Shown here: positions 27,001-58,926 of the stretch, piece by piece
How positions within the stretch are numbered: the first letter of the stretch is position 1
How the letters are laid out: every line of letters begins with the position of its first letter
Source of the DNA: Antedon mediterranea
Lineage: Eukaryota; Echinodermata; Crinoidea; Comatulida; Antedonidae
Length of the DNA stretch: 64,000 bases
Assembly (NCBI RefSeq): GCF_964355755.1
Contig: NC_092672.1
Coordinates: forward strand, 31,306,501 to 31,370,500
Direction of reading: 5' to 3'
Translations under genes and position numbers: made by a program
The notes under the pieces: generated by a model
Databases searched by the model: none
Told to the model about the DNA's origin: nothing
What the model saw: only the letters and a program-made list of their open reading frames with translations

Positions 27001-30000
27001 CTTTGCTAGTAAAACCCAAATAATACAAAAACTCAACAGACTTGCCTCAACAGACTTGACAATTCCTAAATAGGAAGAAAAAGAAAAAAAATAGTTTTCT
27101 CTGAAATTTTTTTTATATTCTTACTTGTATGTATTTCATATCAGTATTTTATTTCTATTTTATATACAAAGTATAGTTACAATTAAAGTTGTAACTATGA
27201 TGTCTACAAAGAGTTACAATTAAAATTGATGATGTCATTTATTCTTTTCTTTTCTGTTTTTATTATTTTTTTAGATGCTGTTGCCGAGGAATCTGAATCA
27301 GATGATGAAGATGAGGATGAAAATGAGGTATAATAACATATAATTTGTTACAATTCTCTGTAAACTTCTATTTTAAAGAAAATGTCAATTTTTTTTTCGT
27401 AATATTTTCTTTTTTATTTATTTTACAGGAAGATGCTGATCAAGACTCAATGGAAGCTGACCTCGACAAAAAGGAGTTATTGCGCCCTCGCTCAGGAGAG
27501 TTGACGGGAGACAAACTGTTATATACTCATTACATGATGGTAAATTTCAAAAGTATTAAATGTAAATGGGGGTATGATCTGTTACAGTCTACTGGGCTGA
27601 ATTGCGCACAGGTGTGGACGACACACGCCACAACTTTCTGCTACTCCCCTAAGGGTCCCTTCATGTCGAGTGCTGCCACCAAACTGCGGCCATTCATCTG
27701 TCCGGGTTTTTTCTTGAATTTGGGATTAATACAAACAAAATTGTAATCATTGTAACAGATTAAAAAAAGTAATGAATTCTTCCTTAATTTAAAATTATAT
27801 TCTATAAATGAATGCTTAAATAGTTCTTTTTTTATAATTTGTTTTCTTTGTAGGGAAGCGGTGATGGACCAAATCAATCAAATTATAGGTAACAAAAAAG
27901 AATTAATAAATAATATAATAAATAACTCAAAATGAAATTTCTACTCTGAGTATTTTTATGAATGGTTTTTGATATTTTTTGTGTGGATATTTTCTGATAT
28001 ATTTATTGAAATGCTATATTTTATCTTTATGTGCTACTTTGGTAAGAGGATTCACAGGCTCTTGTCAGGGATTTAGTTCACTTTTGTGTTTCCTACCACT
28101 TACTTTTTAGTTGTTTGTTGTTGTTGTTTTTGATTGGCAATAAAGAATAAGAATAAGAACAAATAATTCATAAAGGCTCTAAAACCAGTTCATTGTATTT
28201 CGCCGTCTTATAAATAAACAAAACTATGCCATACTAATTTATTTGAATTATTTTTTTAACTTAGTTATCCTCAACAGTTTAACATGAATGGACAGGTAAT
28301 TATATTTGTGATTATTCTTTATGTCTTTTTTTAATTTATTTATTTTTAAAAATTTATTTATTTAATTTGTATGTAATTATTACAGTATTTTTATTATCTA
28401 TGGATTCCAAAATAAATAAATAAAAGATTGAATTGAATATTTTAATATACAAGTAATTGTTCTCTTCATTGACCATTTCATATTCTATTTTCAATTTTGT
28501 AAAATATTTATAATTCGGTTTTTCAACCTTTACTGTATCTGTAGAATTCCAGACCGCCAACTCGTTCTGGTAGCCGTGGTGGGAGCCGACCCTCATCACA
28601 GACTTCTGCTGGTCAGTTAACACAGCCACCACCGCCGCTCAACCTAAGTATGAAAACTTTCTTATAATATAGTTACAATAATTTTTTTAAATGCTCATGG
28701 CCTAAAAAACAAAATCAACGAAACAGTAGGTAATAGTTGATGTATTTTATTACTTTGATTGAAATATAAATTACATTGTAATACCCCTATTTAGGATACC
28801 CCAGAGACAGGGACACTCTACAGTGAATCAAACAAGTGGGTAATATATGTGGCCAACACCTAATCAGAGGACACCCTATTAAGGGACCTCTTTGTTGGGT
28901 CATGAAGGACCATTAATAATGGTTCTACTATAGTATTTTATATTTTTGAAATTATTTTTCTTCTTAAACACTAATTGTCATTGCTTTTCACTTGTGTTTG
29001 CCACTCTACATGGATGTATGTGTATAGGTCAGCGTGTGACAAGTTTTTTTAATTGCCAATTACTATATTTTCATTTCAGAAAAAGATCCAGAAGCTCAAC
29101 AAATACTAGCGAATGAACTTGGGGTAAGTTTGTTTGGATGAGGTGGCACTACAGCATGGTCTTTCCATACTTGCCTTCCAATTGAAATTCATGAATTCAA
29201 ATCATTTGAATACTGTTTCTGAAAACTTCTAATCTTGGGATTTAGTACTTCAGTAGAACCTTTATTAAGGGGACACCTTTGGGACCCAACAAGTGTCCCT
29301 TGAATTTTGGCTTGTTGTAGTGTTGAAACATGGAATTCCCCTTGTTGGTTGCCGCTGAATAGGAGTGTCCCCTGAATAGGAGTGTCTCCTGAATAGGAGT
29401 GTCCCCTGAATAGGAGTGTCCCCTAATAGGAGTGTCCCCTGAGTACGAGTGTTCCCTAATAGGTGTGTCCCCTGAATAGGAGTGTCCCCTGAATAGGAGT
29501 GTCCTCTGAATAGGAGTGTCCCCTGAATAGGAGTGTCCCCTGAATAGGGGTGTTTCCTGAATAGGAGTGTCCCCTGAATAGGTGTGTCCCCTGAATAGGT
29601 GTGTCCCCTGAATAGGAGTGTCCTCTGAATAGGAGTGTCCTCTAATAGGGGTGTTTCCTGAATAGGAGTGTCCCCTGAATAGGTGTGTCCCCTGAATAGG
29701 TGTGTCCCCTGAATAGGAGTGTCCTCTGAATAGGAGTGTCCCCTAATAGGGGTGTTTCCTGAATAGGAGTGTCCCCTGAATAGAAGTGTCTCCTGAATAG
29801 GTGTGTCCCCTGAATAGGAGTGTCCTCTGAATAGGAGTGTTCCCTGAATAGGAGTGTCCCCTAATAGGGGTGTTTCCTGAATAGGAGTGTCCCCTGAATA
29901 GGTGTGTCCCCTGAATAGGAGTGTCCTCTGAATAGGTGTGTCCCCTGAATAGGTGTGTCCCCTGAATAGGAGTGTCCCCTAATAGGGGTGTCCCCTAATA

Positions 30001-31660
30001 GGAGTGTCCCCTAAATAGGAGTGTTCCCTGAATAGGAGTGTCCCCTGAATAGGTGTGTCCCCTAATAGGGGTGTCCCCTAATAGGAGTGTCCCCTAAATA
30101 GGAGTGTTCCCTGAATAGGAGTGTCCCCTAATAGGGGTGTTTCGTGAATAGGAGTGTCCCCTGAATAGGTGTGTCCCCTGAATAGGAGTGTCCTCTGAAT
30201 AGGAGTGTCCCCTAATAGGGGTGTTTCTTGAATAGAGGTGTCATAAAAGAGTGGTTCTACTGTAGTTTAATAATTTTTTTTAATGGCATAAAGAATTAAT
30301 AAAGTGATTGTAATATATTATTACAGACGGATCGTCCTGTTGTGACTGCTGTTGATAAAACTCCCATGAAACCAACAGCTCCACAAAATGGAAGACAGTA
30401 AGTACCTTGTTCAATTCTTAAAGATGTATTGTCAAAACATGACAAATTAAGATTACCAAAACCACACATATAGGCCATGTTGCAGTTTTAATTAAGTTTA
30501 ATCACTTCCATAAGTGTAAAAAATAATGATTTCACATATAAAAATACAAAATAAATGGTTACACTTTAATCAAAAACCTATCTGACAAAACAATTTGACT
30601 TGGTTTTAAATTAGTTTTTTTCATGTCAATACTTTTTTTTGTGTTGATATTATTATGTGATACTAATATGGCATATTTAACACAAAAAAAAACCCTATTT
30701 TTTAAAAGAGACAATATATCTTCAAACATTAACTTTACACTTTATTGAAAGATTCACCCAATTCTCTGTAACATATCTCTACATATACAGTATTATTGGC
30801 GAAGTCTGTAATACGGTGTCACATGTGTTTTCATTTGACAGTAATTCTGAATACAACGCAGCTTTTGGTACTAGGCCTAAGATCCCAAGGACACCAGAGG
30901 GAGGCCGCCCAGTGAGTAGGGGCATGACTCCTGTTCCAATGCCTAAACTGTCTGACTCTTTACCTCAGACCAGGCCGCCTAGTGGAGGAAACAAAACAAG
31001 TAAGTTATTACAGCTATATCATTTTTGAATCGTCATTTTGCTTTTTAATTTATCAATTACAGGATGGATAAACTATTTTATAAGTTGTCATGCTTATAAA
31101 CTAAGTCTCATTTGAGGCTTAAGGCCAATTTACACAGACAAGCGGTAATAAGCAGATAACCGTGTACCTTTGTCCCACGTAGAATCTGTATCTATCCCGA
31201 GTAGGAACCGTTTGTCCTCTCCACATTGTGTGCAAATGGTCATAAGGAATAACATAGATCATCTATATTTTTATTACCATTACCGCTTGTCTATCGAAAT
31301 TGGCCTTAAGGTAGCTCCACAAAAGATCGCTTTCAAATCTATAACAATAACTGCTCTAAACTGTTTTTATTAATAAATAAAAGAATACCGGTAGTGGAGA
31401 GCTTGGTGGTTAACATGCTTGCCTTCCAATCCCAAGATCTTGGTTCAATCCTGACCTAGTCTCACAACTCTTTCTTATCCACTCCCTACACTTCAAATGA
31501 GACTTATCCATTCTGTAAATAGTTCCTCTCTTGGGATTTGTGCCAAAAAATGTTTCGTTTCATAGATTTTTATACGTGTATCTTAGTTTGTTATATACAT
31601 TCTTTTTAAATAGTTAATAAAATGACTGTTTTCATTTTATCCACAGATAAAAGGAAGTAA
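12022..31660 (+). CDS. ARMC9: LisH domain-containing ARMC9 (ciliary basal-body protein)
   Basis: Orthologue of ARMC9, a basal-body protein of the Joubert-syndrome module (family knowledge). Exons: 12022-12099, 12224-12346, 12746-12922, 14081-14329, 14543-14558, 15356-15447, 15739-15813, 16058-16144, 17376-17413, 17564-17584, 19447-19555, 20498-20596, 20712-20802, 21331-21454, 24190-24329, 25025-25095, 26186-26260, 26900-26993, 27275-27327, 27429-27539, 27854-27888, 28265-28295, 28545-28647, 29080-29123, 30327-30397, 30842-30999, 31647-31660. Every junction has AG/GT (or equivalent) and phases close to about 792 codons (human about 817). Diagnostic stretches: N-terminal LisH-like region, [86 protein letters not shown], an acidic run, [17 protein letters not shown], a Pro/Ser/Arg-rich tail and a terminal KRK. 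The start ATG opens a frame whose next exon continues the LisH motif. Confidence 0.95.
13015..13312 (-). mobile_element. tRNA-derived SINE with a CGCTATATAAG tail domain
   Basis: Read on the - strand: a tRNA-like head with B box GAGGTTCGAATCC, a middle with ATCCTTAGGCAAGATACTTT, then a conserved 3' domain ATGCGCTATATAAGAATG and an (ATT)n tail at 13010-13025. The same GGCAAGAT and CGCTATATAA words appear in the 22440-22740 element and in the LINE tail at 10905-10920. This layout resembles Deu-type SINEs. It lies in an ARMC9 intron. Confidence 0.7.
13481..13884. mobile_element. TTAA MITE (CTCTGTCTACA family) with its left arm amplified
   Basis: Begins after TTAA (13477-13480) with AGCTCTGTCTACAATATTG and ends with the inverse GTGTAAACAGAGC. 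The left arm is present four times in direct tandem, period about 80 bp, and each repeat restarts with TTAA (13557, 13636, 13716). The single-copy form of the family is at 50342-50499. It lies in an ARMC9 intron. Confidence 0.75.
14543..14558 (+). CDS. ARMC9: 16-nt microexon of ARMC9
   Basis: TTTTTTCTCAG acceptor, 16 coding bases (encoding QDVPN plus one base), then a GTAAGA donor. Needed for phase: 16 + 92 nt of the next exon gives exactly 36 codons, and the joined product aligns to the ARMC9 segment after the IYKE-type sequence. Confidence 0.75.
14873..15281. mobile_element. hAT-like MITE with an 8-bp target duplication
   Basis: Terminal inverted repeats of about 32 bp beginning CAAAGAACTTATAACACAAG, nearly perfect at both ends. 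The flanks are the direct duplication ATTGATAT (14865-14872 and 15282-15289), diagnostic of 8-bp-duplicating superfamilies such as hAT. The interior contains an approximately 83-bp direct duplication starting GGAGTAGGGCGCCCGCATCA. It lies in the ARMC9 intron before exon 15356. Confidence 0.85.
16240..17310. repeat. Pyrimidine-rich, nearly G-free minisatellite
   Basis: About eight copies of a 120-143 bp unit (AAACACTTAATTCCTCTTTT at 16331, 16469, 16609, 16730, 16851, 16972, 17115 and 17235). The + strand, which is the ARMC9 transcript strand, is made almost entirely of C, T and A with very few G. Length differences reflect insertion of extra CCACATACTTCTGCTTTC segments. The long open frames on both strands are artefacts of this composition. 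Confidence 0.9.
17564..17584 (+). CDS. ARMC9: 21-nt microexon of ARMC9
   Basis: TCAATCAG acceptor, 21 coding bases (phase 2 in and 2 out, encoding about IPTIEE), GTAAAA donor. Because 21 is a multiple of three and both borders have the same phase, the exon could be skipped without a frameshift. The flanking exons 17376-17413 and 19447-19555 would also join in frame. Confidence 0.6.
18015..18230. mobile_element. CAGTAGAACC-family MITE, decayed copy
   Basis: Contains the family words CAATAAAGTGTCCCCTTAATAGGG, GGGGTTGGCCATAGTTTTAAAC and AATAGAGGTGTCCCAAAAA, in family order. The termini are degraded (GTACAGTTTCAGGACCCA at left, GGGGTAGTAATGTA at right). It carries a C-rich run at 18076-18095. 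Confidence 0.65.
18255..18480 (+). mobile_element. tRNA-derived SINE
   Basis: TATGGCTTGGTGGTTAAC as A-box region and GGGTTCAATTC as B-box region about 45 bp later, then a body ending AT-rich near 18480. Same family as 5868 and 31385. Confidence 0.6.
18700..19207. mobile_element. TA-flanked MITE with GGGAGGTTTCGCAA ends
   Basis: Left end GTAGGGAGGTTTCGCAACC; right end the inverse TTGCGAAACCTCTCTAC; TA on each side. Inverted similarity continues through the ATACGAAAACGGAT-type region for about 50 bp, and several CGTATTCGT words lie inside. It lies in the ARMC9 intron before exon 19447. Confidence 0.75.
20969..21060. mobile_element. Partial copy of the TTGATATAAAG fold-back family
   Basis: TGTTGATATAAAGTTTGCG, AACTGTTTGGTTTCTCGACG and a second AAAGTTTGCGGTACAC are present, but the mirrored half is incomplete. 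A further GTTTCAATCAATATAC fragment lies near 21210. Confidence 0.5.
21465..23126. mobile_element. 1.66-kb terminal-inverted-repeat element in an ARMC9 intron
   Basis: CATGGATTAAAGAATAGAAG and onward (GATATGCATCGACG) at the left is matched by its inverse at 23090-23126, giving TIRs of about 36 bp with weaker similarity to about 50 bp. No transposase frame is visible. It contains the composite 5S/tRNA SINE at 22440-22740 and a CCTGGTGATTGG/CCAATCACCAGG palindrome at 22158-22208. A target duplication is not clear. Confidence 0.65.
22440..22740 (-). mobile_element. Composite SINE: 5S rRNA-like head plus tRNA-like segment
   Basis: On the - strand, positions 22740 to 22625 align along the whole of 5S rRNA (GGCCATAC start, CACCGGTTCTCGTC, GATCACCGAAGTTAAGCAAC, TTGGGCCCGGTT, GGATGGGAGACCG, GCGGGTGCTGTA end). 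This includes the internal promoter region. It is followed without a poly-T terminator by a tRNA-like stretch with GGGTTCGAGG (about 22562), then a body with CATCCTTAGGCAAGATGC and an (ATACAAAT)-type tail. A 5S head fused to a tRNA-related segment is the layout of SINE3/AmnSINE-like elements. It is not a clean 5S gene because of several mismatches and the missing terminator. Confidence 0.7.
23386..23574 (-). ncRNA. RNU2: U2 small nuclear RNA
   Basis: 189 nt on the - strand beginning ATCGCTTCTCGGCCTTTTGG, identical to the metazoan U2 5' end. It includes the branch-point-recognition segment GTGTAGTATCTG, stem IIa with a compensated helix (GCTACTC-ATC-GAGTAGC), an Sm-like GATTTTTGA site, loop III (GGAATAGGAGCTTGCTCC) and the terminal stem CCTGGTATTGCAGTACC-TCCAGG. 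Every structural element of U2 is intact and stem substitutions are paired, so it looks like a functional gene and not a pseudogene. A TATA-like run lies 22-31 bp upstream and a candidate 3' box (CCCAAAAACAGA on the - strand) about 17-31 bp downstream. It sits antisense within the ARMC9 intron between exons 21331-21454 and 24190-24329. Confidence 0.9.
23596..23605 (-). promoter_or_regulatory. TATA box of the U2 snRNA gene
   Basis: TATATATA run centred about 27 bp upstream of the U2 5' end. A TATA box at this position is, to my recollection, a feature of sea-urchin U2 promoters, whereas vertebrate U2 genes lack it. The proximal sequence element expected near -55 (about 23625-23645) cannot be confirmed by eye. 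Confidence 0.55.
24735..24960 (+). repeat. Dispersed repeat, left member of an inverted pair
   Basis: AAAATGAAGGGCTAGTGTTG, then CCGAAAGCTCTGC, TTTCTGGCTGTTTACTTTAT, TTGATTTAGCTTTTCGCTT and CTCTGATACCCACAGCATTG. The same string of words occurs inverted at 26455-26775. It lies in the intron between ARMC9 exons 24190-24329 and 25025-25095. Confidence 0.8.
25385..26060. mobile_element. Element with CCTCCGCCAAGGAGG end
   Basis: Starts TTTACCTCCGCCAAGGAGGT and ends GGCGGAGGTATGCACTCTCGGAGTG, a pair of ends I have seen in dispersed repeats of many animals. The interior lacks a long frame. It lies in the ARMC9 intron before exon 26186. Confidence 0.6.
26455..26775 (-). repeat. Inverted partner of 24735-24960 with a 49-bp tandem expansion
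   Basis: Matches 24735-24960 in reverse orientation (TGCTGAGGGTATCAG, AGCAAAAAGCTAAATCAAAA, GGCAACACTAGCCCTTCATT). The central TGACAATGCTGAGGGTATCA segment is repeated about four times at period 49 bp (26481, 26530, 26579, 26628), whereas the left copy has it once. Confidence 0.85.
27900..28160 (+). mobile_element. LINE 3' end remnant
   Basis: Non-coding stretch ending TTGGCAATAAAGAATAAGAATAAGAA, a typical LINE 3' tail. No RT frame remains. It lies in an ARMC9 intron. Confidence 0.4.
28785..28940. mobile_element. CAGTAGAACC-family MITE, decayed copy
   Basis: TACCCCTATTTAGGATACCCC at left, ACACCCTATTAAGGGACCTC and TAATGGTTCTACTATAGT at right, with the family-specific order of internal words. 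It lies in an ARMC9 intron. Confidence 0.65.
29255..30275. mobile_element. CAGTAGAACC-family MITE whose interior became an 18-bp minisatellite
   Basis: Left terminus CAGTAGAACCTTTATTAAGG and right terminus GTGGTTCTACTGTA bracket about 50 copies of CTGAATAGGAGTGTCCCC (18 bp; 17-bp variants lack G or A). The unit corresponds to the family internal sequence around AATAGGGGTGTCCCC. The intact ends on both sides show that the amplification occurred inside one inserted element. It lies in the ARMC9 intron before exon 30327. Confidence 0.9.
31133..31305. mobile_element. TTAA-flanked MITE, GGCCAAT family, copy 2
   Basis: Perfect outer ends GGCCAATTT / AAATTGGCC with TTAA at 31129-31132 and 31306-31309. 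Internal words GTAGAATCTGTATCTATCC and ATGGTCATAAGGAATAA are shared with copies 1 and 3. It lies in the last ARMC9 intron. Confidence 0.8.
31385..31560 (+). mobile_element. tRNA-derived SINE
   Basis: GAGCTTGGTGGTTAACATGC and TTGGTTCAATCC in A-box and B-box positions. Same family as 5868 and 18255. Confidence 0.55.
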
Positions 31661-31950: not shown

Positions 31951-31952
31951 AT

Positions 31953-32880
31953 AGTAGAATCCCTCATTTCCATTCAAGGTACACCCCAATTAAGGGGACA
32001 CTTCTGTGAAGCTAGCGAGGGGAAATATATGTTTTAACAATACAGACAACCTATATTCAGGGAACACCCATTTTAAGGGGACATTTCTATGCTGAGGGGG
32101 CAACATGTTTTAACAATACGACCAACCCTATTCAAGGAACACTCCAATTAAGATGACATTTCTGTTAAGTTAGCGAGGGCAATATGTTTAACAATATGAA
32201 CAACCTCTATTTAAGGGACATCCTTATTAAAGGACATTTCTGTTAAGTTAGCGAGGGCAATATGTTTAACAATATGAACAACCTCTATTTAAGGAACACT
32301 CCAATTAAGATGACATTTCTGTTAAGTTAGCGAGGGCAATATGTTTAACAATACGACCAACCCTATTCAAGGAACACTCCAATTAAGATGACATTTCTGT
32401 TAAGTTAGCGAGGGCAATATGTTTAACAATATGAACAACCTCTATTTAAGGAACAATCCAATTAAGATGACATTTCTGTTAAGTTAGCGAGGGCAATATG
32501 TTTAACAATATGAACAACCTCTATTTAAGGGACAATCCAATTAAGATGACATTTCTGTTAAGTTAGCGAGGGCAATATGTTTAACAATATGAACAACCTC
32601 TATTTAAGGGACACTCCAATTAAGATGACATTTCTGTTAAGTTAGCGAGGGCAATATGTTTAACAATATGAACAACCTCTATTTAAGGGACACTCCAATT
32701 AAGATGACATTTCTGTTAAGTTAGCGAGGGCAATATGTTTAACAATATGAACAACCTCTATTTAAGGAACAATCCAATTAAGATGACATTTCTGTTAAGT
32801 TAGCGAGGGCAATATGTTTAACAATATGAACAACCTCTATTTAAGGGACACTCCAATTAAGATGACATTTCTGTTAGTCC
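31953..32880. repeat. 79-bp minisatellite derived from the CAGTAGAACC-family MITE
   Basis: Starts TAGTAGAATCCCTCATTTCC (the family left terminus, slightly mutated), then about 11 tandem units of 79 bp containing ACACTCCAATTAAGATGACA and GTTAGCGAGGGCAATATGTT. The unit spans the left-half words of the MITE (ATTAAGGGGACA ... GAGGGGAA ATATGTTTTAACA). The array ends abruptly at 32875. Just downstream of ARMC9. Confidence 0.85.
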
Positions 32881-33689
32881 CTCTATCTATATTCCTTGTT
32901 ACTAATTTTAAAGGATGCCTAATTTTTATTACAAGCAAAATGCTATGTTGATGATGAATTGTTGTGAATTAGTGGACTTAGATATTCTTAGCTTGCTAAA
33001 TAATTGCACAGGTAGGCCTACAAGCGTAAAAACAAAATGCAATTGCAAAAGTTGTATTTATTTTGTGACCCCCAAAACATAGGACAAGGTTGAAGAGGAT
33101 GAGCCATACAAAATGACATAAAGGTCACTGATTAAGTTGTTAACTATTTTAGTAGCATCTGAAAAGATATACTTAAATATATCTAAATAGATAATATAAA
33201 TTAAAACAGTATTATTTGTAATGAGTTAGATGTGTGTGAAATTTAAATAGAATATAAATTTAATTTACTTAGTATTATTATAACAAAATGAGACAGTTAA
33301 AGACCACTTTACTTAGACGAGCGGGAACTTAAGCGGAAAACAATGTAGTAGAATCTGTATCTATCCTGAGTGGAAACCACCCTTACACTTTGCTTTGCGT
33401 TAATTCATATTTTACGACTTCCTGGTTAAATGGTCATAAGGAATAAGACAGAGTTTCTATATTATTATTACCGTTACCATTCCTCTGTGTAAATTGGCCT
33501 TAATATATTGTTATGTTAGACAGTAAAACCCTTTGGGACAACACTATTTAGATGACACTTCACATAAAACGAACGAGGGGAACCTATGTTTTAACGCTAC
33601 AAAGTGTGTGTTTTAATTCAAAGGAACAAATATATTTAAATCATCAGTATTTTATTAATGTATTTATTGTATAGGCCTTCTCCTCTATT
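32881..33689. other. Intergenic; one TTAA MITE and one MITE fragment
   Basis: Holds the third GGCCAAT MITE (33301-33499, TTAA at 33297-33300 and 33500-33503) and a left-end fragment of the CAGTAGAACC family at about 33522-33610 (CAGTAAAACCCTTTGGGACA). I see nothing else. Confidence 0.65.
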
Positions 33690-35797
33690 ATCACATAATA
33701 ATTGCATTTTCGTTATTTAAAAGGGCAATATTTTTTTCGAAAAAATCTCTGTACAGGGATTTTTTCCAAAACTGGTCACTATGGCTCTATAAAATGATAC
33801 AAAGCAATATAAGTGCATATATAGCCATATTCTCGCATAATAATTAAATTTTAAAAAAGCGATATTTTGGGCAAAAAAAATCCCTGTACTATATATAGTA
33901 CAGGGAAATTTTCAAAAAATGACCGATTTTCGACCCTTTTATTTTTTTACATAAATGGTTACTATTGCATAATAAACAAGCGCAGAGACGAATATGGGTT
34001 CTGCGCATGTCAATTGTGCTATGGTAACCAGTTTTGAAATAAATGGTTACTATATATAGCATAATAAACATGCGCAGAGTCGACTAATGGGTTCTGCGCA
34101 TGTTAATTGTGCTATAGTAATCAGTTTTATCGAAAAATAAAATGGTCGAAAATTGGCAATTTTTTTGAAAAAATACCTGTACAGGGAAATTTTCGAAAAT
34201 GGCCGATTTTCGACCCTTTTATTTTTGTACATAAATGGTTACTATTGCATAATAAACAAGCGCAGAGACGAATAATGGGTTCTGCGCATGTCAATTGTGC
34301 TATTGTAACCAGTTTTGACATAAATGGTTACTATAGCATAATAAACATGCGCAGAGTCGACTAATGGGTTCTGCGCATGTTAATTGTGCTATAGTAACCA
34401 GTTTTATCGAAAAATAAAAAGGTCGAAAATTGGCCATTTAAAAAAAAAATCCATGTACTAGTACAGGGAAATTTTCGAAAATGGCCGATTTTCGACCCTT
34501 TAATTTTTTGACATAAATGGTTACTATTGCATAATAAACATGCGCAGAGACGAATAATGGGTTCTGCGCATGTCAATTGTGCTATGGTAACCAGTTTTGA
34601 AATAAATGGTTACTATATATAGCATAATAAACATGCGCAGAGTCGACTAATGGGTTCTGCGCATGTTAATTGTGCTATAGTAATCAGTTTTATCGAAAAA
34701 TAAAAAGGTCGAAAATTGGCAATTTTTTTGAAAAATCCCTGTACTATAGTACAGGGAAATTTTCAAAAAATGACCGATTTTCGACCCTTTTATTTTTTTA
34801 CATAAATGGTTACTATTGCATAATAAACAAAATTTTCGAAAATGGCCGATTTTCGACGCTTTAATTTTTTGACATAAATGGTTACTACTGCATAATAAAC
34901 AACCGCAGAGACGAAAAATGGTTTCTGCGCATGTCAATTGTGCTATGGTAAAAATAAAAAGGTCGAAAATGGCCGATTTTCGAACCTTTTATTTTTTGAC
35001 ATAAATGGTTACTATTGCATAATAAACATGCGCAGAGACGAATAATGGGTTCTCCGCATGTCAATTGTGCTATGGTAACCAGTTTTGACATAAATGGTTA
35101 CTATAGCATAATAAACATGCACAGAGTCGACTAATGAGGTCTGCGCATGTTAATTGTGCTATAGTAACCACCAGTTTTATCGAAAAATAAAAAGGTCAAA
35201 AACTGGCAATTTTTTCGAAAAAATCCATGTACTATAGTACAGGGAAATTTTCGAAAATGGCCGATTTTCGAACCTTTTATTTTTTTACATAAATGGTTAC
35301 TACTATTGCATAATAAACATGCGCAGAGTCGAATAATGGGTTCTGCGCATGTCAATTGTGCTATGGTAACCAGTTTTGACATAAATGGTTACTATAGCAT
35401 AATAAACATGCACAGAGTCGACTAATGAGGTCTGCGAATGTTAATTGTGCTATAGTAACCAGTTTTATCGAAAAATAAAAAAGTCGAAAACTGGCAATTT
35501 TTTCGAAAAAATCCATGTACTATAGTACAGGGAAATTTTCGAAAATGGCCGATTTTCGACCCTTAAATTTTTTGACATAAATGGTTACTATTGCATAATA
35601 AACAAGCGCTGAGACGAATAATGGGTTCTGCGCATGTCAATTGTGCTATGGTAACCAGTTTTGACATTAATGGTTACTATAGCACAATTGACCTGTGCAG
35701 AACCAATTATTCGACTCTGCGCATGTTTATTATGCTATAAAAATGGCCGATTTTCGACCCTTAAATTTTTTTACATAAATGGTTACTATTGCATAAT
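33690..35797. repeat. Tandem array of hairpin units (about 282 bp)
   Basis: About six units, each made of successive inverted repeats. Hairpins A and B both read GGTTACTAT(T/A)GCATAATAAA ... TTTCTGCGCATGT(C/T)AATTGTGCTAT..GTAACC (about 75 bp each; arms GCATAATAAACATGCGCAGA). Hairpin C, about 115 bp, has arms AAATAAAAAGGTCGAAAAT and CGATTTTCGACCCTTTTATT around TCCCTGTACTATAGTACAGGGA. Unit starts (AAATGGTTACTATTGCAT) are near 33953, 34234, 34516, 35004, 35290 and 35577. The first 200 bp are a diverged flank repeated at 41410-41650. Confidence 0.85.
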
Positions 35798-40063: not shown

Positions 40064-40119
40064 ATAATAAACAAGCGCAGAGTCGAATAATGGCTTCTGC
40101 GCATGTCAATTCTTCTATA

Positions 40120-41040
40120 GTAATGGTGCCACTTCCAATTCTCTCCCAGTCATCTCAGGCGTGCCTCAAGGTTCCATTCTTGCCCCCCTGCTGTTCAATA
40201 TATTTGTTAATGAAATACCAAATCTCTTTCAAAATTCCAACTGTCTTATGTTCGCTGACGACCTCAAGATTTACAAAATTATTACCACTACTGAGGACTC
40301 CGTTGCACTTCAGGCAGATCTGGAAAGACTCGGTACGTGGGTTTCAGACTGCAAAATGTCCCTGAAGTCCGAGAAATGCAAAGTCCTGTCTTGCTCTCTT
40401 AAGAAAAAACCTATTATTTTCGCTTACTCAGTTCAAGAAGAAGTCATTGAAAGTGTAAACTCTTACCGGGACCTCGGTATTTTCATCGACCGTAAACTGA
40501 CATTAATTATTTCACACGTTGATCATGTTGTCAGAAAGGCCAATAGGCTGCTTGGGCTGATGTGGCGCAATTGCAAACATTTTTCTCCATACACCAAACG
40601 TGCGCTTTATCTTTCCCTCGTCCAACAACCATCTTTTAATTTCTGTTCAATTATTTACAATTCACTCTCTGCTTCTCAAGCCTCCAGAATTGATCGGACC
40701 CATAACAAGTTCTTGCGCTTTGTCGGCCCAGCAGCCAACCTACCTGCCTCCTATTGTTTCAGGACTTGCACTTCCTGTATAAATGTCTTACTTCTAAGTT
40801 TGATTGTGATCTTGTTTATTTTAATGTTCCTGTTCGTAATCTTCGTAGTAAACCCTTTCTTCATGTTAAATATTCTCGTGTCAATGTTTGTAAAAATGGT
40901 ATTTTCTGTAGACTCTCGTCATTGTACAATTCATGTCTTTTAAAAAATAATTCTTTAGATATTTTTAACTGTAATTTTTCTCAATTTAAATGTATTATTA
41001 ATGAAATTATTTAAATTTTCTTTTTCATTTGTATATATTT
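40120..41040 (+). mobile_element. 5'-truncated, frame-shifted LINE reverse transcriptase
   Basis: From about 40130 the frame reads [20 protein letters not shown] and LMFADDLKIY (RT catalytic Asp-Asp), then WVSDCKMSLKSEKCKVL and SYRDLGIFIDRKL. Near 40770 the coding continues in another frame (FLYKCLTSKFDCDL ... to a stop at about 41014), so one frameshift is present. It directly follows the last hairpin-array remnant (40064-40120). Pseudogenised retrotransposon. Confidence 0.85.
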
Positions 41041-42425: not shown

Positions 42426-43139
42426 GATCATTACGCAATATACACGAAGCCTTTAAAATGCAAGCACAATTTACTGAGGTGATTGTCACTGATATACGTT
42501 GTTGCAAGAGTCTTCAACCATTTGGAAATGTCATTGCATGACTACAATCATTAATGTAACCCATTCTCACCCCCATCCTGGTCATAGTAAAATTGAAATT
42601 TCTCATATTGTTTGATCATTTTAACAGTGTGCAAACATAAGCTCTCGCATACAGTTTTACAGTCATTTTAAGTACATTGTGTGGGCACTTGATTTAATAA
42701 TCTGCATGTAGTAGGCTAGCCATATTGTGCTTATATTGACACAAAGTTTTGAATTTTGAATAGCCATAACAATTTATCACAAATTTGGACAAGCCAAGCA
42801 TGGAGTTCAAAACGCTACAATTGTACGACATATACAATAGATCAATATTGAACAGTGAATCTAACATTTTTTTTGTTTCCTTTTTAAATTTGTAATGTGG
42901 GTTGCATAAGATGATTATTATGATTATCGAATATAACACAAAAATAATTGTAGATTAAAAAAAAAAGAATTACACTATCAATTAATCCTATTAAACAAAA
43001 AATGAGAGTTCATTTTAGAAAATAATAATTCTGGATTAACAAAACATAAATTACCCTTCCTTTTCTATAACAAAAGATATTGATACTTTTACTTAAAGAT
43101 AGTTTAAGCATGTTCTTAATGTCCACTTTAAAAAACCCA
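42426..43139. other. Intergenic, nothing recognised
   Basis: AT-rich unique-looking sequence. No coding similarity, no tandem repeat and no terminal inverted repeats were noticed. Confidence 0.5.
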
Positions 43140-43970
43140 GTAGAATTCATTTAGGATACCTCTATTTAGGAGGGTCACTCCTATTAAAGAAATACTCGTA
43201 AAATGAATGAGGAGAAATATATGATTTAACAGTCACTGTGGTCAACCCCTATCAAGGGGACACCTCTATTAAAGGGACACTTTGTTGAGCCCCAAGTATT
43301 CACTTCAAATGTATAAACAAAAATATTCTAAAATAAAACCTGAATATTGATTATGCATCTTACACTGATATTTAATAATATACATTATTTTATTTTACAA
43401 TTTCATATTTACTACGTACATATATAATTATATCTTAATATACAAAGGAAGAGCGTCGTTGGTACACTACACATATGTTACAAAATTTAAAGTGAGATCG
43501 TAGGCCTACAGTAAACAAGCTCGATTCATTATTTGTACAGTAGAACACCTATTAAGGTACCCAAGAAATGTACCCCTTAATAGGGGTTGGCTGTAACGTT
43601 AAAATATATATGTCTTGTTTGTTTCATGAGAAAGTGTCCCTTGAATATTGAATAGAGTGTTGGCCATAACGTTAAAAGATCCTCTTTCGTTTCACCGGAA
43701 GGTGGCCCCTTAACAAAAGTCCCCTGAATTGGTCATAGCATTTAAAAAATACTATTGTCCTATGTTCATTTCATGGGGAAGTGTTCTCTTAAATAGGAGC
43801 GTGTTCCCTTAATAGGGGCGTGTTCATTTCATGGGGAAGTGTTCTCTTAATAGGGAAGTGTTCTCTTAATAGGGGCGTATTCCCTTAATAGGGGCGTGTT
43901 CATTTCATGGGGAAGTGTTCCCTTAATAGGGGCGTCCCAAAGGAGGTGTTGTACTGTATTTTAAATTAAG
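43140..43970. mobile_element. Two CAGTAGAACC-family MITE copies, the second with short internal expansion
   Basis: Copy 1 spans about 43150-43300 (GGATACCTCTATTTAGG ... GGGGACACCTCTATTAAAGG). Copy 2 begins ACAGTAGAACACCTATTAAG at 43538 and ends GGCGTCCCAAAGGAGGTGTT. Its right half contains several partial repeats of CATTTCATGGGGAAGTGTTC and CCTTAATAGGGGCGTGTTC (43790-43935), an early stage of the expansions seen elsewhere in the window. Confidence 0.75.
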
Positions 43971-45411: not shown

Positions 45412-45417
45412 TTTATT
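45412..45417 (-). terminator. Candidate proximal poly(A) signal of RAP1GAP
   Basis: AATAAA on the - strand, about 23 nt after the stop codon (45440-45442). It is unusually close to the stop, so a distal site may be the one used. Confidence 0.3.
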
Positions 45418-45439
45418 CAATGATTTGGTCAGTTTTCAA

Positions 45440-48400: not shown

Positions 48401-51400
48401 TACAATTTCGAATTAGACCCTCTACTTACCTTGAAGCTAGTTTCTTTTTCTTACTATCCTTCCTTTTCATCTTTTCACTTCCTGGACATCCATCATCCAT
48501 GTTATTCAAAAGTCCTCCTGAGTTATTTCGTTGCATTTTATTAAACCTAGATTTTGTCTGCACAAAAGAAATAGAGAACAAATCTTTACTTCAACAATTA
48601 GAAATAGTGTACAAATTACTATACGTAATAATTTGAAAAAATAATATAATTTTTAAATAGTATTAAATTTTAAATAATATTTTTTAAGGCATACGTACAG
48701 CAGGGCTAGTTTTTTCCGTTGGTTCTTGATTTACTCCGAGCGTTACACCGTTGGATTTTATCGTTCCGTTTTCGGTTGACTTTGATTTTTTAAACGCGTT
48801 CTTGAACGAATCTAGTATACTTGAGCTGTTGTTGTTATCCGTTCCTCTTTGTAGTCCAGTCAACATATTTGGATCAACGATTGTGCTTAGTAGATGCCGA
48901 TTCTTTTCCGTAAGTTGACAATATAAGTTATCGAATAAGGCTTTCTTTGTTCGTTCCTGTAGGTAAAAAAAACCCACAAAATTAAACATACAAATTGAGT
49001 ATAAATATTATACTGCTTAGTTAATATGCTTATTATCATTATTTATACTCATATACTATTTATGTTTACACAAAATATTAGTTGTTGTTTATTATTGCAA
49101 TCTTTAATCTATACTATATATAATGTATATATAGTATATACTATATATATACTGGAATTATAATTTATGTATACATATTTTTTTTTCATTTACAAATATC
49201 GGTAGTTATTTCATTTATAATTATCATGAAACTATTGAAATATAATTTAAATAATTTTTATAAAGAAGATGTTAGTTATGTTATTATACTGTAATTTTTT
49301 ATCCTAAATTATATAATTATATATTCTAGGTTATTTTTATTTTTTTAGTAATGTGTTTTGTTGTGGGTCCCTACGAGACAAGTTTTTAACTTCTAGAAGG
49401 GATCCATGATAATAATGACTACCAATTACTGCTTTATCTATGTTCACTTTAATATCTTTTTTCTATTTTGTATATATTCATTCATTATTATCTAAATAAA
49501 TATTATCTGAATCTGAGTAGTTCAGTTTCGTGTGTTTTATTCATTACTCCAAGATTGACACCATAGGTGGCAGCATTTATAATAAATTGATACAATTAGT
49601 AGTGAATATAAATTTGATTATTGTTTGAAGGTTTGCATAGCGAAATCAAATGTTGATATAAAGTTTGCGGTACACCACGCATATTAGTTCTGAAAAGAAC
49701 TGTTGAGTTTCGATCAATATGCTTTGATCATCCTTAAATCAAATCAAAGCATATTGATCAAAACGTCGAGAAACTCAACAGTTCTTTTCAGAACTATACG
49801 TGGTGTATCGCAAACTTTATATCAATAAATTTTATTATTATTTTTTTCAAATTATTTGTCACAGTTTCCATTCACATACCTGAATCATAGCAAACTTCTG
49901 AGCTTTATAACATGCATTCTCAGCATTAAGGAGTTTGGTAAGTAAAAATTCTCGGAATTCAGTTCCCTTCTTGAAAATAGCAGGCGACGGTAGCGCCGGC
50001 CCGAATAAAGGTACATCTTCACGTGCTGTTACACTAACCTAGAATCGTAATTGATTTTAGTAGTTAGTTGTATGACATGCGCTTCAACAAAGTGGATTAG
50101 TAAGCTAAAGTGGTCATATATTCACAATTGCTTTATCACAAGTGAAGTTTGTGTCTGCATGTATTAGATTAGGCGAGCTATAAAGGCAGTAAATAATTCA
50201 TTACCATCTCAATGAGGATGTTAACAAAATTAAATTTGATAGTTTATAAATGCCACGTCGACTATTTGAATCTGTACTAACCAAAGGTCTATTAAGGCAG
50301 TAATTCAATGGTGAGAGCACTATTTCTAAATGAATTCTTAATTCTGTCTACATTATCAAACTTAATGTGAAAAAAAATATGATGTGCCTAAATATGGTAA
50401 TGATATGCCCGAATATGGTAGTGATATGACATCATCATGTCTATATATGGGAACATCACATTTTTTTGTCACATAAAGTTTGATAATGTAGACAGAGCTT
50501 TAAATGACACAGTATTGATTGAAGTCTAGGCTAGGTTACATTATTTTGTTTATGGTATTAACAAATGAAATCCAAATGAAAAGATGAGGGGGTCATTATA
50601 GGGCAATATCTAAGGATCTTAAACAAATGTAGGCCTACCTCATATCGAGTATTTGCTGTGTTTGGTTCTATCGGTCGAACAACGATATAAGCATGAAGGA
50701 AATTTGACGCTATCATGTCCGGTATGAATGGCGTTGCCTTGTCTTGGAAGATGATCGCTACGATATCGTTTCCAATGTGTCGCTTGCGTTGTAACTAAAA
50801 TGAGGACAAAGTTCAACCATCAACATTTTGTATTCAAACTATATTTTTGGAATCAACTACAAATGATGGTTTGTCAGAAGGTGAAAATTAAAGTGAGCCC
50901 TCACTATTTATTTGTAGTTAGCTATAATTGTTGTAAATCATTGATTTATAGGAAATAATAGTTCCCACATTCACGCAAATAAAAATACCGAAATAAACAA
51001 ATAAATAAAACAAACTGTATTCATACCTGTTGCCTGTCTCCTTCTGTGTATGGTAACATAGTTGATACATGGAACATCACACCCTTGTCTTTGTGTTTTG
51101 TATAAATAGAATGTGTTCCGGTTTGGCCATGACTCACATCCAGTCCTCCACGGAAGCTGTAAGTGGAGAAATCAAGGAATTTAGGAAAACATGATGAGAT
51201 TAAGTCTGGACATTTTAGACTTGAATGTAGCAAAGAGATGAGTAATCTAACAAGATAGATATTTTATAAAATATCTATCTTCATGTTTGCTAACATTATG
51301 TAAAACATTTGACTTTCCTGGTGGCTTTTTATTTTTATTTGTACTTTTTTTACGCATACGTATTTTGTATTTAAAGGCAGAACAAATGTGTACGAACTGA

Positions 51401-54400: not shown

Positions 54401-57400
54401 CATTATAAATATTAATTTTAAAAAGTTGCCGCAAAAACCTCATTTCCTCTCCTAAATCGTTACTTACTGGTACTAATCATTTTAACGTTCTAGGTTTATG
54501 ATCTAGTTGAATTATATAAAATTCTTATTTTTATTTGACGGTTATATTTTTAAAAATGAACCTAACCTTTATTATTCTATATACCATAACTAGGATAAAT
54601 CCAGTGTTTATTACAAATATTAATATGTAACCATTGACATAAAGGTCAATCCCCTTCCTTCCACTTCCCACACCTCCCTCATCCCCTCTCACACCCTAAC
54701 CCTTCCACTTTCCACACCTCCCTCATCCCCTCTCACACCCTAACCCTTCCACTTCCCACACCTCCCTCATCCCCTCTCACACCCTAACCCTTCCACTTTC
54801 CACACCTCCCTCATCCCCTCTCACACCCTAACCCTTCCACTTCCCACACCTCCCTCATCCCCTCTCACACCCTAACCCTTCCACTTTCCACACCTCCCTC
54901 ATCCCCTCTCACACCCTAACCCTTCCACTTTCCACACCTCCCTCATCCCCTCTCACACCCTAACCCTTCCACTTCCCACACCTCCCTCATCCCCTCTCAC
55001 ACCCTAACCCTTCCACTTTCCACACCTCCCTCATCCCCTCTCACACCCTAACCCTTCCACTTCCCACACCTCCCTCATCCCCTCTCACACCCTAACCCTT
55101 CCACTTTCCACACCTCCCTCATCCCCTCTCACACCCTAACCCTTCCACTTTCCACACCTCCCTCATCCCCTCTCACACCCTAACCCTTCCACTTTCCACA
55201 CCTCCCTCATCCCCTCTCACACCCTAACCCTTCCACTTCCCACACCTCCCTCATCCCCTCTCACACCCTAACCCTTCCACTTTCCACACCTCCCTCATCC
55301 CCTCTCACACCCTAACCCTTCCACTTTCCACACCTCCCTCATCCCCTCTCACACCCTAACCCTTCCACTTTCCACACCTCCCTCATCCCCTCTCACACCC
55401 TAACCCTTGTATAATTATGCAAAATGCTTATTATGGTATATTTACACCTTTTGGACCTCAGGAATACTGTACCACCTAATAGTAATACAGTATAGAACCG
55501 CTATTGAGGGGACATCTTCAGACCTCAGGAATACCTCCTAATACAGTATAGAACCGCTATTGAGGGGACATCTTCAGACCTCAGGAACACTGTACCACCT
55601 AATAGTAATACAGTATAGAACCGCTATTGAGGGGACATCTTCAGACCTCAGGAATACCTCCTAATACAGTATAGAACCGCTATTGAGGGGACATCTTCAT
55701 ACCTCAGGAATACCTCCTAATACAGTATAGAACCGCTATTGAGGGGACATCTTCAGACCTCAGGAATACCTCCTAATACAGTATAGAACCGCTATTGAGG
55801 GGACATCTTCAGACCTCAGGAATACCTCCTAATACAGTATAGAACCGCTATTGAGGGGACATCTTCATACCTCAGGAATACCTCCTAATACAGTATAGAA
55901 CCGCTATTGAGGGGACATCTTCAGACCTCAGGAATACCTCCTAATACAGTATAGAACCGCTATTGAGGGGACATCTTCAGACCTCAGGAATACCTCCTAA
56001 TACAGTATAGAACCGCTATTGAGGGGACATCTTCAGACCTCAGGAATACCTCCTAATACAGTATAGAACCGCTATTGAGGGGACATCTTCAGACCTCAGG
56101 AATACCTCCTAATACAGTATAAAACCGCTATTGAGGGGACATCTTCAGACCTCAGGAATACCTCCTAATACAGTATAAAACCGCTATTGAGGGGACATCT
56201 TCAGACCTCAGGAATACCTCCTAATACAGTATAGAACTGCTATTGAGGGGACATCTTCAGACCTCAGGAATACCTCCTAATACAGTATAGAACCGCTATT
56301 GAGGGGACATCTTCAGACCTCAGGAATACCTCCTAATACAGTATAGAACCGCTATTGAGGGGACATCTTCAGACCTCAGGAATACCTCCTAATACAGTAT
56401 AGAACCGCTATTGAGGGGACATCTTCAGACCTCAGGAATACCTCCTAATACAGTATAGAACCGCTATTGAGGGGACACCTTCAGACCTCAGGAATACCTC
56501 CTAATACAGTATAAAACCGCTATTGAGGGGACATCTTCAGACCTCAGGAATACCTCCTAATACAGTATAGAACCGCTATTGAGGGGACATCTTCAGACCT
56601 CAGGAATACCTCCTAATACAGTATAGAACCGCTATTGAGGGGACATCTTCAGACCTCAGGAATACCTCCTAATACAGTATAGAACCGCTATTGAGGGGAC
56701 ATCTTCAGACCTCAGGAATACCTCCTAATACAGTATAGAACCGCTATTGAGGGGACATCTTCAGACCTCAGGAATACCTCCTAATACAGTATAAAACCGC
56801 TATTGAGGGGACATCTTCAGACCTCAGGAATACCTCCTAATACAGTATAGAACCGCTATTGAGGGGACATCTTCAGACCTCAGAAATACCTCCTAATACA
56901 GTATAGAACCGCTATTGAGGGGACATCTTCAGACCTCAGGAATACCTCCTAATACAGTATAGAACCGCTATTGAGGGGACATCTTTAGACCTCAAGAATA
57001 CCTCCTAATACAGTATAGAACCGCTATTGAGGGGACATCTTTAGACCTCAGGAATACCTCCTAATACAGTATAAAACCGCTATTGAGGGGACATCTTCAG
57101 ACCTCAGGAATACCTCCTAATACAGTATAGAACCGCTATTGAGGGGACATCTTCAGACCTCAGGAATACCTCCTAATACAGTATAGAACCGCTATTGAGG
57201 GGACATCTTCAGACCTCAGGAATACCTCCTAATACAGTATAGAACCGCTATTGAGGGGACATCTTCAGACCTCAGGAATACCTCCTAATACAGTATAGAA
57301 CCGCTATTGAGGGGACATCTTCAGACCTCAGGAATACCTCCTAATACAGTATAGAACCGCTATTGAGGGGACATCTTCAGACCTCAGGAATACCTCCTAA

Positions 57401-58926
57401 TACAGTATAGAACCGCTATTGAGGGGACATCTTCAGACCTCAGGAATACTGTACCACCTAATAGTAATACAGTATAGAACCGCTATTGAGGGGACATCTT
57501 CAGGACCAAACAAAGTGTCACCTTATAGGGTGTCCCTATAATAGGTGTTTGCATGCTTTAAGTGTTAAAACATACAATGCCACGTTCGTTCTATGGGAAA
57601 TTGTCTCTTTAATAGGGGTTGTCTCTCCTAGTCTTTCCTCAACCATAGAGATATAATATCTCTATGCCTCAACACAATACATTAAGTTTTAGTTTAAGTT
57701 ACGTGTGCTCTTTTATATTTTTGTTGTAACAAGTATTGTGAATGATGTACCGTATAACTCTATATAATTGTATAATTGTTATGTATGTAGTGTATGAAAT
57801 GACACATTTCCAATTGTATATACTGTGTATGTAGGACAATAAAAGTTTTTTGAATTTGAATTTTGAATTTGAAAGAAGGGTTATACTGTACTAATTTTGT
57901 GTTTAAGCTGGGCATACCTGTTTGACTGTACAGTAGTTATAAATAGAATTATTAGTCCAACAATAAAACACATCTACGTGACAGCCATCCGTCACGTCCA
58001 CCATTTATAAAAATGTAAAATTTAATAACGTATTATGTCATTCTTGACTAACCTTGCCAAGAAAACATCTTCTGTACATTTTAGCCGTGTCGTCAAATTC
58101 AAGTTTATTCTCCGACGTTAAGTGTTCTGTTTTTTGTTTAATCTCCTGACTCTTTGGGGAATCGTCATGGATACCGTCAATCCAGTATCCACCATCTTGC
58201 GGTTGGATAATTGATGGCGGTTCGCTCTCTTTTTCCGTTGATGTTTTCAAAACCTGCCGAGACATACAAAAGCAATTAAATGTTGAATGTAATTTATGGT
58301 TGTATTTTGCGTAGTGTACTACTCCCTCTACTTGGACGACTGAGATGATGATACTGACAATATATAATATGAACATGATTTTGATAATAATGAATATGAT
58401 TATTATATCAAAATGATAATGATGTTCATAATAATGATTTTGGTGATAATAGTGATTATGGTGATAATAGTGATTATGGTGATAATAGTGATTATGGTGA
58501 TAATAGTGATTATGGTGATAATAGTGATTATGGTGATAATAGTGATTATGGTGATAATAGTGATTATGGTGATAATAGTGATTATGGTGATAATAGTGAT
58601 TATGGTGATAATAGTGATTATGGTGATAATAGTGATTATGGTGATAATAGTGATTATGGTGATAATAGTGATTATGGTGATAATAGTGATTATGGTGATA
58701 ATAGTGATTTTGGTGATAATACCTTTGATGAAATAGTACAGTAACGTTGATTATGATGGTAATGCTAATGTTAATAATTACGATAATGATAATGACAATA
58801 AGAAAATAATAAATACAATGTGTGTGATTATAACTTAATAAAACCTACCTCTTGTATTTTCTCTGTATTTGACCTTCGTGTTTGTGACCTTGTTCTCTTT
58901 GGAGAGTTTGGTCCTGGACTTGGAAT
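45440..58926 (-). CDS. RAP1GAP: Rap1 GTPase-activating protein (RAP1GAP/RAP1GAP2 type), 5' incomplete
   Basis: Stimulates GTP hydrolysis by Rap1 (family knowledge). Exons, in transcription order: 58849-58926, 58053-58253, 53607-53792, 52273-52326, 51762-51946, 51027-51156, 50639-50794, 49880-50038, 48699-48956, 48430-48557, 47845-48091, 45839-46033, 45440-45565 (stop TAA). Phases close throughout, about 700 codons. First exon encodes [18 protein letters not shown]; next [11 protein letters not shown] and MYRRCFLGK; then [62 protein letters not shown], the catalytic segment [17 protein letters not shown] (Asn in GND is the catalytic Asn-thumb residue of the family), [30 protein letters not shown] and [21 protein letters not shown]-terminus: Ser-rich region, CPTC and CTFC pairs, then a coiled coil. 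The N-terminal GoLoco exon was not found. Confidence 0.94.
46040..46440. repeat. Degenerate AATCAAT-rich repeat
   Basis: Irregular tandem of AATCAATAATCAATCAATA / CATGGATTGATAATCAAT with many self-complementary TTGATT/AATCAA words. It lies in the RAP1GAP intron before exon 45839-46033. Confidence 0.7.
47210..47290 (+). mobile_element. LINE/SINE 3' end remnant
   Basis: GTTTAGCACCTGTTTGGTCT ... GTATATGGCAGAAATTG followed by (AATA)n, a typical retroposon tail. It lies in a RAP1GAP intron, antisense to the gene. Confidence 0.45.
49350..49530 (+). mobile_element. LINE 3' end remnant
   Basis: GTGGGTCCCTACGAGACAAG ... TATTCATTCATTATTATCTA and a short TATCTGAATCTGA tail, resembling CR1/L2-type 3' ends. 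No coding part is left. It lies in a RAP1GAP intron. Confidence 0.4.
49653..49825. mobile_element. TTGATATAAAG fold-back element, copy 2
   Basis: Same ends and inner arms as 5458-5641 (TTGATATAAAGTTTGCGG and its inverse; AGTTCTGAAAAGAACTGTTG). The preceding GAAGGTTTGCATAGC flank is also shared with copy 1. It lies in the RAP1GAP intron left of exon 49880-50038. Confidence 0.75.
50342..50499. mobile_element. TTAA MITE, CTCTGTCTACA family, single-copy form
   Basis: TTAA at 50338-50341 and 50500-50503. Arms of about 50 bp TTCTGTCTACATTATCAAAC / GTTTGATAATGTAGACAGAGC. Centre GGTAGTGATATGACATCATC. Parent type of the amplified element at 13481. It lies in a RAP1GAP intron. Confidence 0.8.
52971..53090 (-). 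mobile_element. Decayed 5S rRNA-like sequence (second 5S-derived SINE copy)
   Basis: On the - strand, GGCAAACCCATGTTGAAAAC, CAGTTCTCGTTTAAACAAAT, CGGCAACATTGGGCCCAGTT, AGCACTTGGATAATAGACTG and TTGTAGGC follow 5S order. It is more diverged than 22625-22740. It lies in a RAP1GAP intron. Confidence 0.6.
54645..55408. repeat. 44-bp minisatellite with G-quadruplex-type units
   Basis: About 17 copies of a 44-bp unit that is entirely free of G on the + strand (CACACCTCCCTCATCCCCTC plus TCACACCCTAACCCTTCCAC plus TTTC/TTCC). On the - strand, which is the RAP1GAP transcript strand, each unit reads G3-TTA-G3-N7-G4-N4-G3 and includes the telomere-like GGGTTAGGG. Two subtypes (TTTCC and TTCCC) are interspersed. 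It lies in the 4.3-kb RAP1GAP intron 53793-58052. Confidence 0.95.
55455..57640. repeat. 56-bp minisatellite seeded by a CAGTAGAACC-family MITE
   Basis: About 36 highly uniform copies of a 56-bp unit containing TACAGTATAGAACCGCTATT and GAGGGGACATCTTCAGACCT, the MITE left terminus, plus ACCTCAGGAATACCTCCTAA, probably the flanking host sequence. After the last unit (57505) the remaining MITE body continues once (CAAACAAAGTGTCACC ... GGGAAATTGTCTCTTTAATAGGGG) to about 57640. The repeat unit therefore spans the element's left junction. It lies in a RAP1GAP intron. Confidence 0.92.
57660..57885 (+). mobile_element. LINE/SINE 3' end with (GAATTT) tail
   Basis: ...GTATGTAGGACAATAAAAGT followed by TTGAATTTGAATTTTGAATTTGAA, the same tail type as the LINE at 8280-9497. 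No RT frame. Confidence 0.5.
58430..58722. repeat. 18-bp tandem repeat GTGATTATGGTGATAATA
   Basis: About 16 almost perfect copies, with the only variants at both edges (TTTTGG). The long open frame of repeated Val-Ile-Ile-Val-Ile-Met is an artefact. It lies in the RAP1GAP intron between 58253 and 58849. Confidence 0.95.

Follow-up and report, generated by a model that had tools for sequence, protein, structure and literature searches.

Copies of one MITE family in the crinoid Antedon mediterranea carry minisatellites built from different parts of the element

The window, that is, the whole stretch of DNA analysed here (64,000 nucleotides of contig NC_092672.1 of Antedon mediterranea), contains reverse-transcriptase fragments (RVT_1) at 8501-9526 (reverse strand) and 40071-40943 (forward strand), as well as copies of a MITE of about 174 bp that ends in TA-CAGTAGAACC. 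Two of these copies could be read directly in the sequence with TA on both sides: one at 7461-7637 (reverse strand), which has no array, and one at 18035-18216 (forward strand), which has diverged ends and a pyrimidine-rich stretch inside. Further copies without a long array lie on the reverse strand at 28782-28930, at 33521-33606 (truncated) and at 43138-43290 (with a 17-bp tandem pair at 43245-43280), the far end being approximate in all three, and old, rearranged fragments occupy 63060-63400 (forward strand). Four copies contain tandem arrays. The copy at 29251-30262 (forward strand) has both termini exactly as CAGTAGAACC and encloses a minisatellite of 52.5 copies of a 17-bp unit (29355-30235, forward strand), while the copy at 31952-32876 (reverse strand), in which the second terminus was not seen, holds 11.5 copies of a 79-bp unit (31972-32876). 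The internally rearranged copy at 43538-43958 (forward strand) has a 19/38/76-bp array at 43776-43935, and the copy at 55488-57640 (forward strand; right end approximate) is associated with 35.7 copies of a 56-bp unit (55483-57503). The location of the 17-bp array appears to be intronic, with exon-like, AG/GT-bordered stretches seen by eye at about 29080-29123 and 30327-30397.

An initial annotation of this window had proposed that one terminal word and three ordered internal words recur at ten places, and that each array uses a different part of the element. The internal words are indeed far above chance: CTATTAAGGGGACA has 93 matches at up to two mismatches (chance mean 0.59) and CCTTAATAGGGGTGTCCC has 60 at up to three (chance 0.02), the majority of both lying inside arrays, although TTGGCCATAACGTTAAAAC has only three matches at up to three mismatches (chance 0.01), and is therefore absent at this stringency from some of the ten places. 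The terminal word CAGTAGAACC has 10 matches at up to one mismatch (chance mean 2.5), but three of them (10085, 25065, and 62181) lie off the listed elements, and the copies listed at 18015, 31953, 55455 (left end), and 63060 retain only diverged ends. The derivation of the four arrays from different parts of the MITE (units of 17, 79, 19/38, and 56 bp) is borne out, and the pattern extends genome-wide. The unit given as 18 bp at 29255 is in fact 17 bp, in an array that begins at 29355, and the 79-bp unit, described as a piece of the left half, is not simply that, but a pair of 17-mers plus an A+T-rich spacer. The 56-bp unit does span the left junction as proposed, being composed of host flank, the left terminus, and the initial 35 bp or so of the element, and the smaller expansion noted near 43790 corresponds to the array at 43776-43935.

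The 13 sampled copies in which the two ends could be identified gave a 174-bp consensus, which was adjusted by hand with the words of the window copies. It begins TACAGTAGAACC, with the inverted form at the other end, and the family has terminal inverted repeats and is short, non-coding, and dispersed in many copies, as expected of a MITE. Within the consensus, 17-mers resembling TGTCCCCTTAATAGGGG, which may be transposase-binding sites, occur as a tandem pair (47-63 and 64-80), again at 132-148, and in inverted orientation at 11-27. There is also a direct repeat of 27 bp at positions 43 and 128, 85 bp apart, the exact length of which is approximate because the consensus was hand-adjusted. In total, eight direct repeats of at least 7 bp are present (the longest 27 bp), against a mean of 1.7, a maximum of 6, and a longest repeat of 11 bp in 100 shuffles. 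Folded as single-stranded DNA, the consensus reaches -38.5 kcal/mol vs. -21.7 for shuffled sequences (z = -5.85), with a long hairpin predicted across about 11-64.

The 21-bp terminus, at up to two mismatches, has 902 matches (404 + 498) in the 354-Mb genome and none for the reversed pattern; a part of these matches are repeats within arrays (e.g., C4:15881330-15883785). A similarity search with a single copy gave at least 20 matches (16 candidates scored), which is a lower bound, and the pattern search was therefore used instead. Among 52 sampled copies without arrays, the inverted end GGTTCTACTGTA (up to two errors, at a distance of 80-330 bp) is recognisable in 13, and it has been lost or has diverged in many of the remainder. 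These two-ended copies are 85-241 bp long, and one of them (L054) contains a nested second MITE. Among array-free copies, the left half of the MITE, some 73 bp from end to end, gives a palindromic short form when scored by itself and may be a minimal subfamily in its own right; L039 (86 bp) and L059 (85 bp) are short copies in which the two ends are present. Iterating an HMM over the array-free copies led to a palindromic form of only 77 bp, and the 174-bp alignment consensus was kept.

The TA seen by eye on both sides of the copies at 7461-7637 and 18035-18216 is the flank expected for Tc1/mariner elements; at 29251-30262, the copy is preceded by TT and followed by TA (also by eye). Since TA is already part of the pattern used as anchor, at its start, the sampled loci provide no independent test of a TA target site. 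There are 47 DDE_1 matches in the genome, and among five that were examined, one (L209) has TACAGTAGAACCTCCATTTTACGTAC at both ends. This element is 2,760 bp long, with identical 26-bp ends and a 539-amino-acid frame that matches DDE_1 (1.9e-46) and HTH_Tnp_Tc5 (1.6e-17). Its ends equal those of the MITE over the first 14 bases only, so that L209 is a relative and at most a candidate source. Because L209 combines matching ends with both domains, the MITE family is probably a non-autonomous, pogo/Tigger-like member of Tc1/mariner. Separately, three DDE_1 matches (C1:22457502, C7:24065651, and C11:22016935) are nearly equal in score (142.7-142.8 bits); one of the three, L210, has identical 26-bp ends TACAGTCAACTCTCCCAATACCGGAC, and the trio may be a recently active pogo-type family.

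For a genome survey of array frequency, 108 terminus-anchored loci were examined at TRF scores of at least 150 or at least 300. These comprise 68 loci (14 + 54) and 40 from further pattern searches (40 of 41 further candidates, the last listed being left out). Of the first 30 loci extracted, 17 (L018-L034) lie in a single array and were counted once, as L018. The sample comes from one assembly and is biased to copies with a well-kept terminus. At a score of at least 150, 25 of the 108 loci have an array overlapping the element, whereas the flanks, with a total of 109,597 bp, contain 12 (p = 4e-13 for a rate ratio of 12.2). Raising the threshold to at least 300 leaves 19 of 108 loci and, in 110,568 bp of flank, 3 arrays (p = 1e-13 for a rate ratio of 37). 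The 25 include L050, the unit of which is only partly element-like, while the second arrays of L189 and L073 were scored as flank, with element sequence in them by eye. Loci L194 and L195 are 5.6 kb apart, look alike, and are possibly one duplicated locus, their arrays belonging by eye to the second MITE family described below. Sub-samples give array-bearing fractions of 9/32, 7/36, and 9/40, and without the five arrays whose unit holds the anchor terminus, 20 of 103 loci are still array-bearing. The arrays fit the definition of minisatellites (tandem units of some 10-100 bp, in arrays that reach hundreds of bp or more), and the visible span is at least 300 bp in 17 of the 25. A chance or background origin is ruled out by the flank density, which is 12-fold lower per base.

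Two other dispersed families served as controls. The first is a second MITE family, with the end GCTCTGTCTACACTATCAAACT and 15,191 + 15,413 matches in the genome, from which 40 loci were taken (all within the initial 6.4 Mb of C1); the other is a SINE-like family with 540 + 703 matches, from which 40 loci were taken on C1 and C2. Element-derived arrays scoring at least 150 occur at four of the 40 second-MITE loci (L089, L092, L095, and L098) and at one of the 40 SINE-like loci (L164), with the off-element arrays of L090, L097, and L160 left out of these counts. In equal 600-bp windows, where L051 drops out and the count of the studied family is 24 of 108, the two-sided Fisher p is 0.003 against the SINE-like family and 0.10, not significant, against the second MITE. 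At a score of at least 300, the corresponding counts are 18/108 vs. 2/40 for the second MITE (p = 0.10) and 1/40 for the SINE-like family (p = 0.025); one-sided tests on 25/108 give p = 0.055 and 0.0015, respectively. Thus, both MITE families are array-prone in this genome, the studied one nominally more so, and the proposed excess of arrays in this family holds against the flanks and the SINE-like family, but not against the second MITE. The second MITE, noted in the window at 13476-13793 and 50379-50428, has 21-bp tandem repeats and also forms arrays: by eye, these are one of 79 bp x 4 in the window and two on C1, with units of 42 bp at C1:410893 and 92 bp at C1:1406560 (loci L089 and L098).

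These comparisons bear on the explanation that the family is not special, the host making minisatellites from many sequences and above all from MITEs with internal repeats. The second MITE is not significantly less prone to arrays, and 12 of the 16 window arrays scoring at least 150 lie outside the studied family, so that the host may account for some of the effect. As a full account it is unlikely, however, given an in-element density that is 12 (score of at least 150) to 37 (at least 300) times that of the flanks of the same loci, and the single array among 40 SINE-like loci.

Compared with the flanks, the element is enriched in arrays; these are made of different segments, and units of at least 28 bp are distinct from one another. 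When 24 such units (276 pairs) are compared, the top score, that of L042 in L173, is 0.69 relative to the shorter unit, followed by 0.66, 0.65, and 0.62, so that no shared unit, as an inherited tandem core would leave, was found in this size class; units of the 17-bp class share the family 17-mer at several loci. A dimer of the 56-bp unit matches only its own locus, in a search that yields a lower bound. The dimer of the 79-bp unit also has matches elsewhere: those at C6:5932612, C5:2771043, and C7:5810050 cover 113-143 bases at 69-76% (70-71% at the last) and are each repeated there, and shorter pieces match too (40-85 bases at 77-90%, again as a lower bound). Host flank is included in the units of L018, L056, L176, and the window array at 55483. 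It would be possible in principle for the MITE to have carried its arrays, with one or a few array-bearing copies transposing and spreading an inherited tandem core. The 17-mer pair and the 27-bp direct repeat of the consensus mean that the seed is inherited, and the family 17-mer common to the 17-bp class is in keeping with this explanation, but the diversity of the longer units, the single locus of the 56-bp dimer, and the host flank within four units all speak against it, and we regard it as very improbable. For units of at least 28 bp, movement of ready-made arrays by transposition was rejected on the unit diversity and the single-locus dimer. The amplifications are in this respect independent, as the initial annotation had supposed.

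Similarity within and between arrays gives information on their timing. According to TRF, the match among repeats is 90-99% in 20 of the 25 arrays and 73-87% in L047, L058, L076, L189, and L196. Units longer than 50 bp (n = 19: 16 sampled, those of the window arrays at 31972 and 55483, and L002) were compared with the consensus over the aligned part, with gaps counted. Fourteen of them (11 sampled, the two from the window, and L002) are 90-99% alike within the array and only 66-81% identical to the consensus. Since these repeats are mutually alike yet unlike the consensus, the 14 arrays arose in place in copies that had already diverged. The units of L018, L056, and L176 are 92-97% like the consensus where they align with it (20-60 columns), and private mutations therefore do not date them. 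The loose arrays of L189 (73% within, 73% to the consensus) and L196 (82% and 67%) complete this group, and most units shorter than 50 bp are 79-92% consensus-like and carry little timing information. That the arrays might predate the MITE, which had been named as a possible refutation, is contradicted wherever the order can be read: the units are element sequence, some with host flank, and their repeats resemble each other rather than the consensus.

Junctions were read by inspection in 30 arrays (25 sampled, four from the window, and L002). Nine are built on the 17-mer (29355, 43776, L047, L058, L073, L076, L180, L196, and L206), five extend between the two 17-mer regions (31972, L055, L085, L189, and L193), two consist of the near-whole element plus flank in tandem (L007 and L051), and the remaining 14 have junctions that are of other kinds or, in L049 and L050, unclear. 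By this inspection, native direct repeats fit 14 of the 30 arrays, and 16 start elsewhere. Copies without arrays contain comparable rearrangements of small extent: 22 backward jumps along the consensus were found at 19 of 83 loci, together with 50 other breaks, mostly deletions. When copies were simulated with no duplication, nine runs gave backward jumps at 0-6 of 83 loci and 0-3 other breaks. Some of the extra 17-mers may be subfamily variation. The end points of the breaks lie at 28-107 in 77 of 100 cases (from 50 breaks), with the right half under-sampled because breaks were read from the left end to the first gap.

The explanation that we favour, and consider likely, is that the anatomy of the MITE copies itself favours duplication, and that copies duplicate in place, after which the doubled segment grows. 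The relevant anatomy would comprise the 27-bp direct repeat at a distance of 85 bp, the tandem 17-mers, and the inverted 17-mers that are predicted to fold the left third. Single copies would undergo a first tandem duplication in place, mostly (in readable cases) after acquiring private mutations, via replication slippage or unequal exchange. Native direct repeats, acting as exchange partners, could yield the 17-bp units and those of about 70-85 bp, while short microhomologies and hairpin tips could yield the remaining units, some with host flank. The doubled segment would then grow by slippage or unequal crossing-over, by which the repeats would stay alike. The suggestion that the element carries something that provokes tandem duplication is thereby answered only in part: the direct repeats fit just under half of the arrays inspected, and a role of the hairpin is a proposal.

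This role can be taken further, in that an extruded left hairpin might be cut, or might stall replication, at its loop (about 28-46), with repair of the end duplicating the sequence behind. Six of the 16 arrays not explained by direct repeats (L018, L042, L051, L056, L185, and 55483) have, by inspection, a right-hand junction within or beside the loop, and the predicted fold places the long stem there. On the other hand, this association is post hoc and involves few junctions, the loop is poorly conserved and aligns poorly, so that the placement of jumps drifts there, and the 17-bp and about 70-85-bp classes are left unexplained; as the main cause of the arrays, hairpin-tip breakage is quite unlikely. 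A broader form of the anatomical reading, which we offer tentatively, is that the MITE acts as a general minisatellite nursery, its fold and repeats stalling replication or repair at defined points (the hairpin loop and the 17-mers), such that any copy becomes an array given time and the genome would hold hundreds of independent births from one known seed at different stages. The backward jumps in 19 of 83 array-free copies would then be possible steps to 2-3 copies, where noise in the alignment is expected to give 0-6 of 83.

Minisatellites derived from transposable elements are established (reviewed in PMC6947457, PMC9659126, and PMC12628747). In human, Alu-derived minisatellites have a relative abundance of 0.18% (AluJ), 0.24% (AluS), and 0.40% (AluY) of copies and a mean of 2.3-2.4 repeats, with younger elements starting arrays more often (Ahmed and Liang, 2012; PMC3389668), and, as in the MITE studied here, they are described as mostly single-locus arrays formed in place from parts of a dispersed element. 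In contrast to the 0.18-0.40% given there, arrays occur here at 25 of 108 loci, although the criteria differ; 12 of 108 loci have units longer than 20 bp and a TRF match of at least 95%, a count to which their G+C filter was not applied and in which the identity measures may differ. Furthermore, 14 of the 25 arrays have at least five copies, unlike the Alu mean reported in that paper, and many units bear private mutations, whereas there the younger elements are the more frequent starters. The PIF/Harbinger subfamily MtPH-A6-4 of Medicago has variable tandem arrays in 18 of 23 members, but the account in PMC2213677 gives one 60-bp VNTR unit common to members, whereas here units of at least 28 bp differ by locus. 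The Xenopus MITEs miDNA4 and Xstir are linked to tandem arrays, for which microhomology and stem-loop models have been put forward, and the Xstir repeats are described as coming from internal MITE sequence, as here; by the same review descriptions (PMC12628747 and PMC9659126), each family has one named repeat, that of miDNA4 having been captured by an ancestral MITE. The Tetris foldback element is likewise a non-autonomous DNA element with tandem repeats within its terminal inverted repeats (TIR-220), which differ in being a single unit of about 220 bp also found in satellite-like arrays, as far as PMC4079207 describes them. BrickBuilt of Porphyromonas gingivalis resembles our case in that a minisatellite is enclosed in a MITE, but it is bacterial and, in the description of PMC4596501, has one 23-nucleotide unit, with forms of BrickBuilt found 19 times in one strain.

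Among the literature matches listed, none describes, in its title or at the start of its abstract, a single MITE family that generates many different array units, and no title among those listed for CAGTAGAACC is that of a transposon paper. Within these matches, a MITE family with its own unit made separately by each of a large proportion of copies is new, and the combination of array frequency and unit diversity in one family is unusual. The birth of tandem repeats is usually inferred from single cases, and here there is one known seed with apparently many arrays. The copies look like one-copy, two-copy, and many-copy stages, and may thus amount to a natural replicate experiment on minisatellite birth, in which unit choice, junction homology, growth, and homogenisation would become statistically measurable. 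The observations also suggest that variable-number repeats can become dispersed by way of a MITE family, one such repeat here being apparently intronic.

Two further arrays were noted in the window. A long composite array at 33896-35738 has units of about 89 bp grouped at 282-288 bp, and its unit ends look inverted (GGTTACTAT...ATAGTAACC), so that it looks like a further palindromic element turned array. The other, at 54657-55408, consists of 17 copies of a 44-bp unit that are 98% alike; by eye this unit is unrelated to the MITE, and the array ends some 75 bp short of the 56-bp MITE array.
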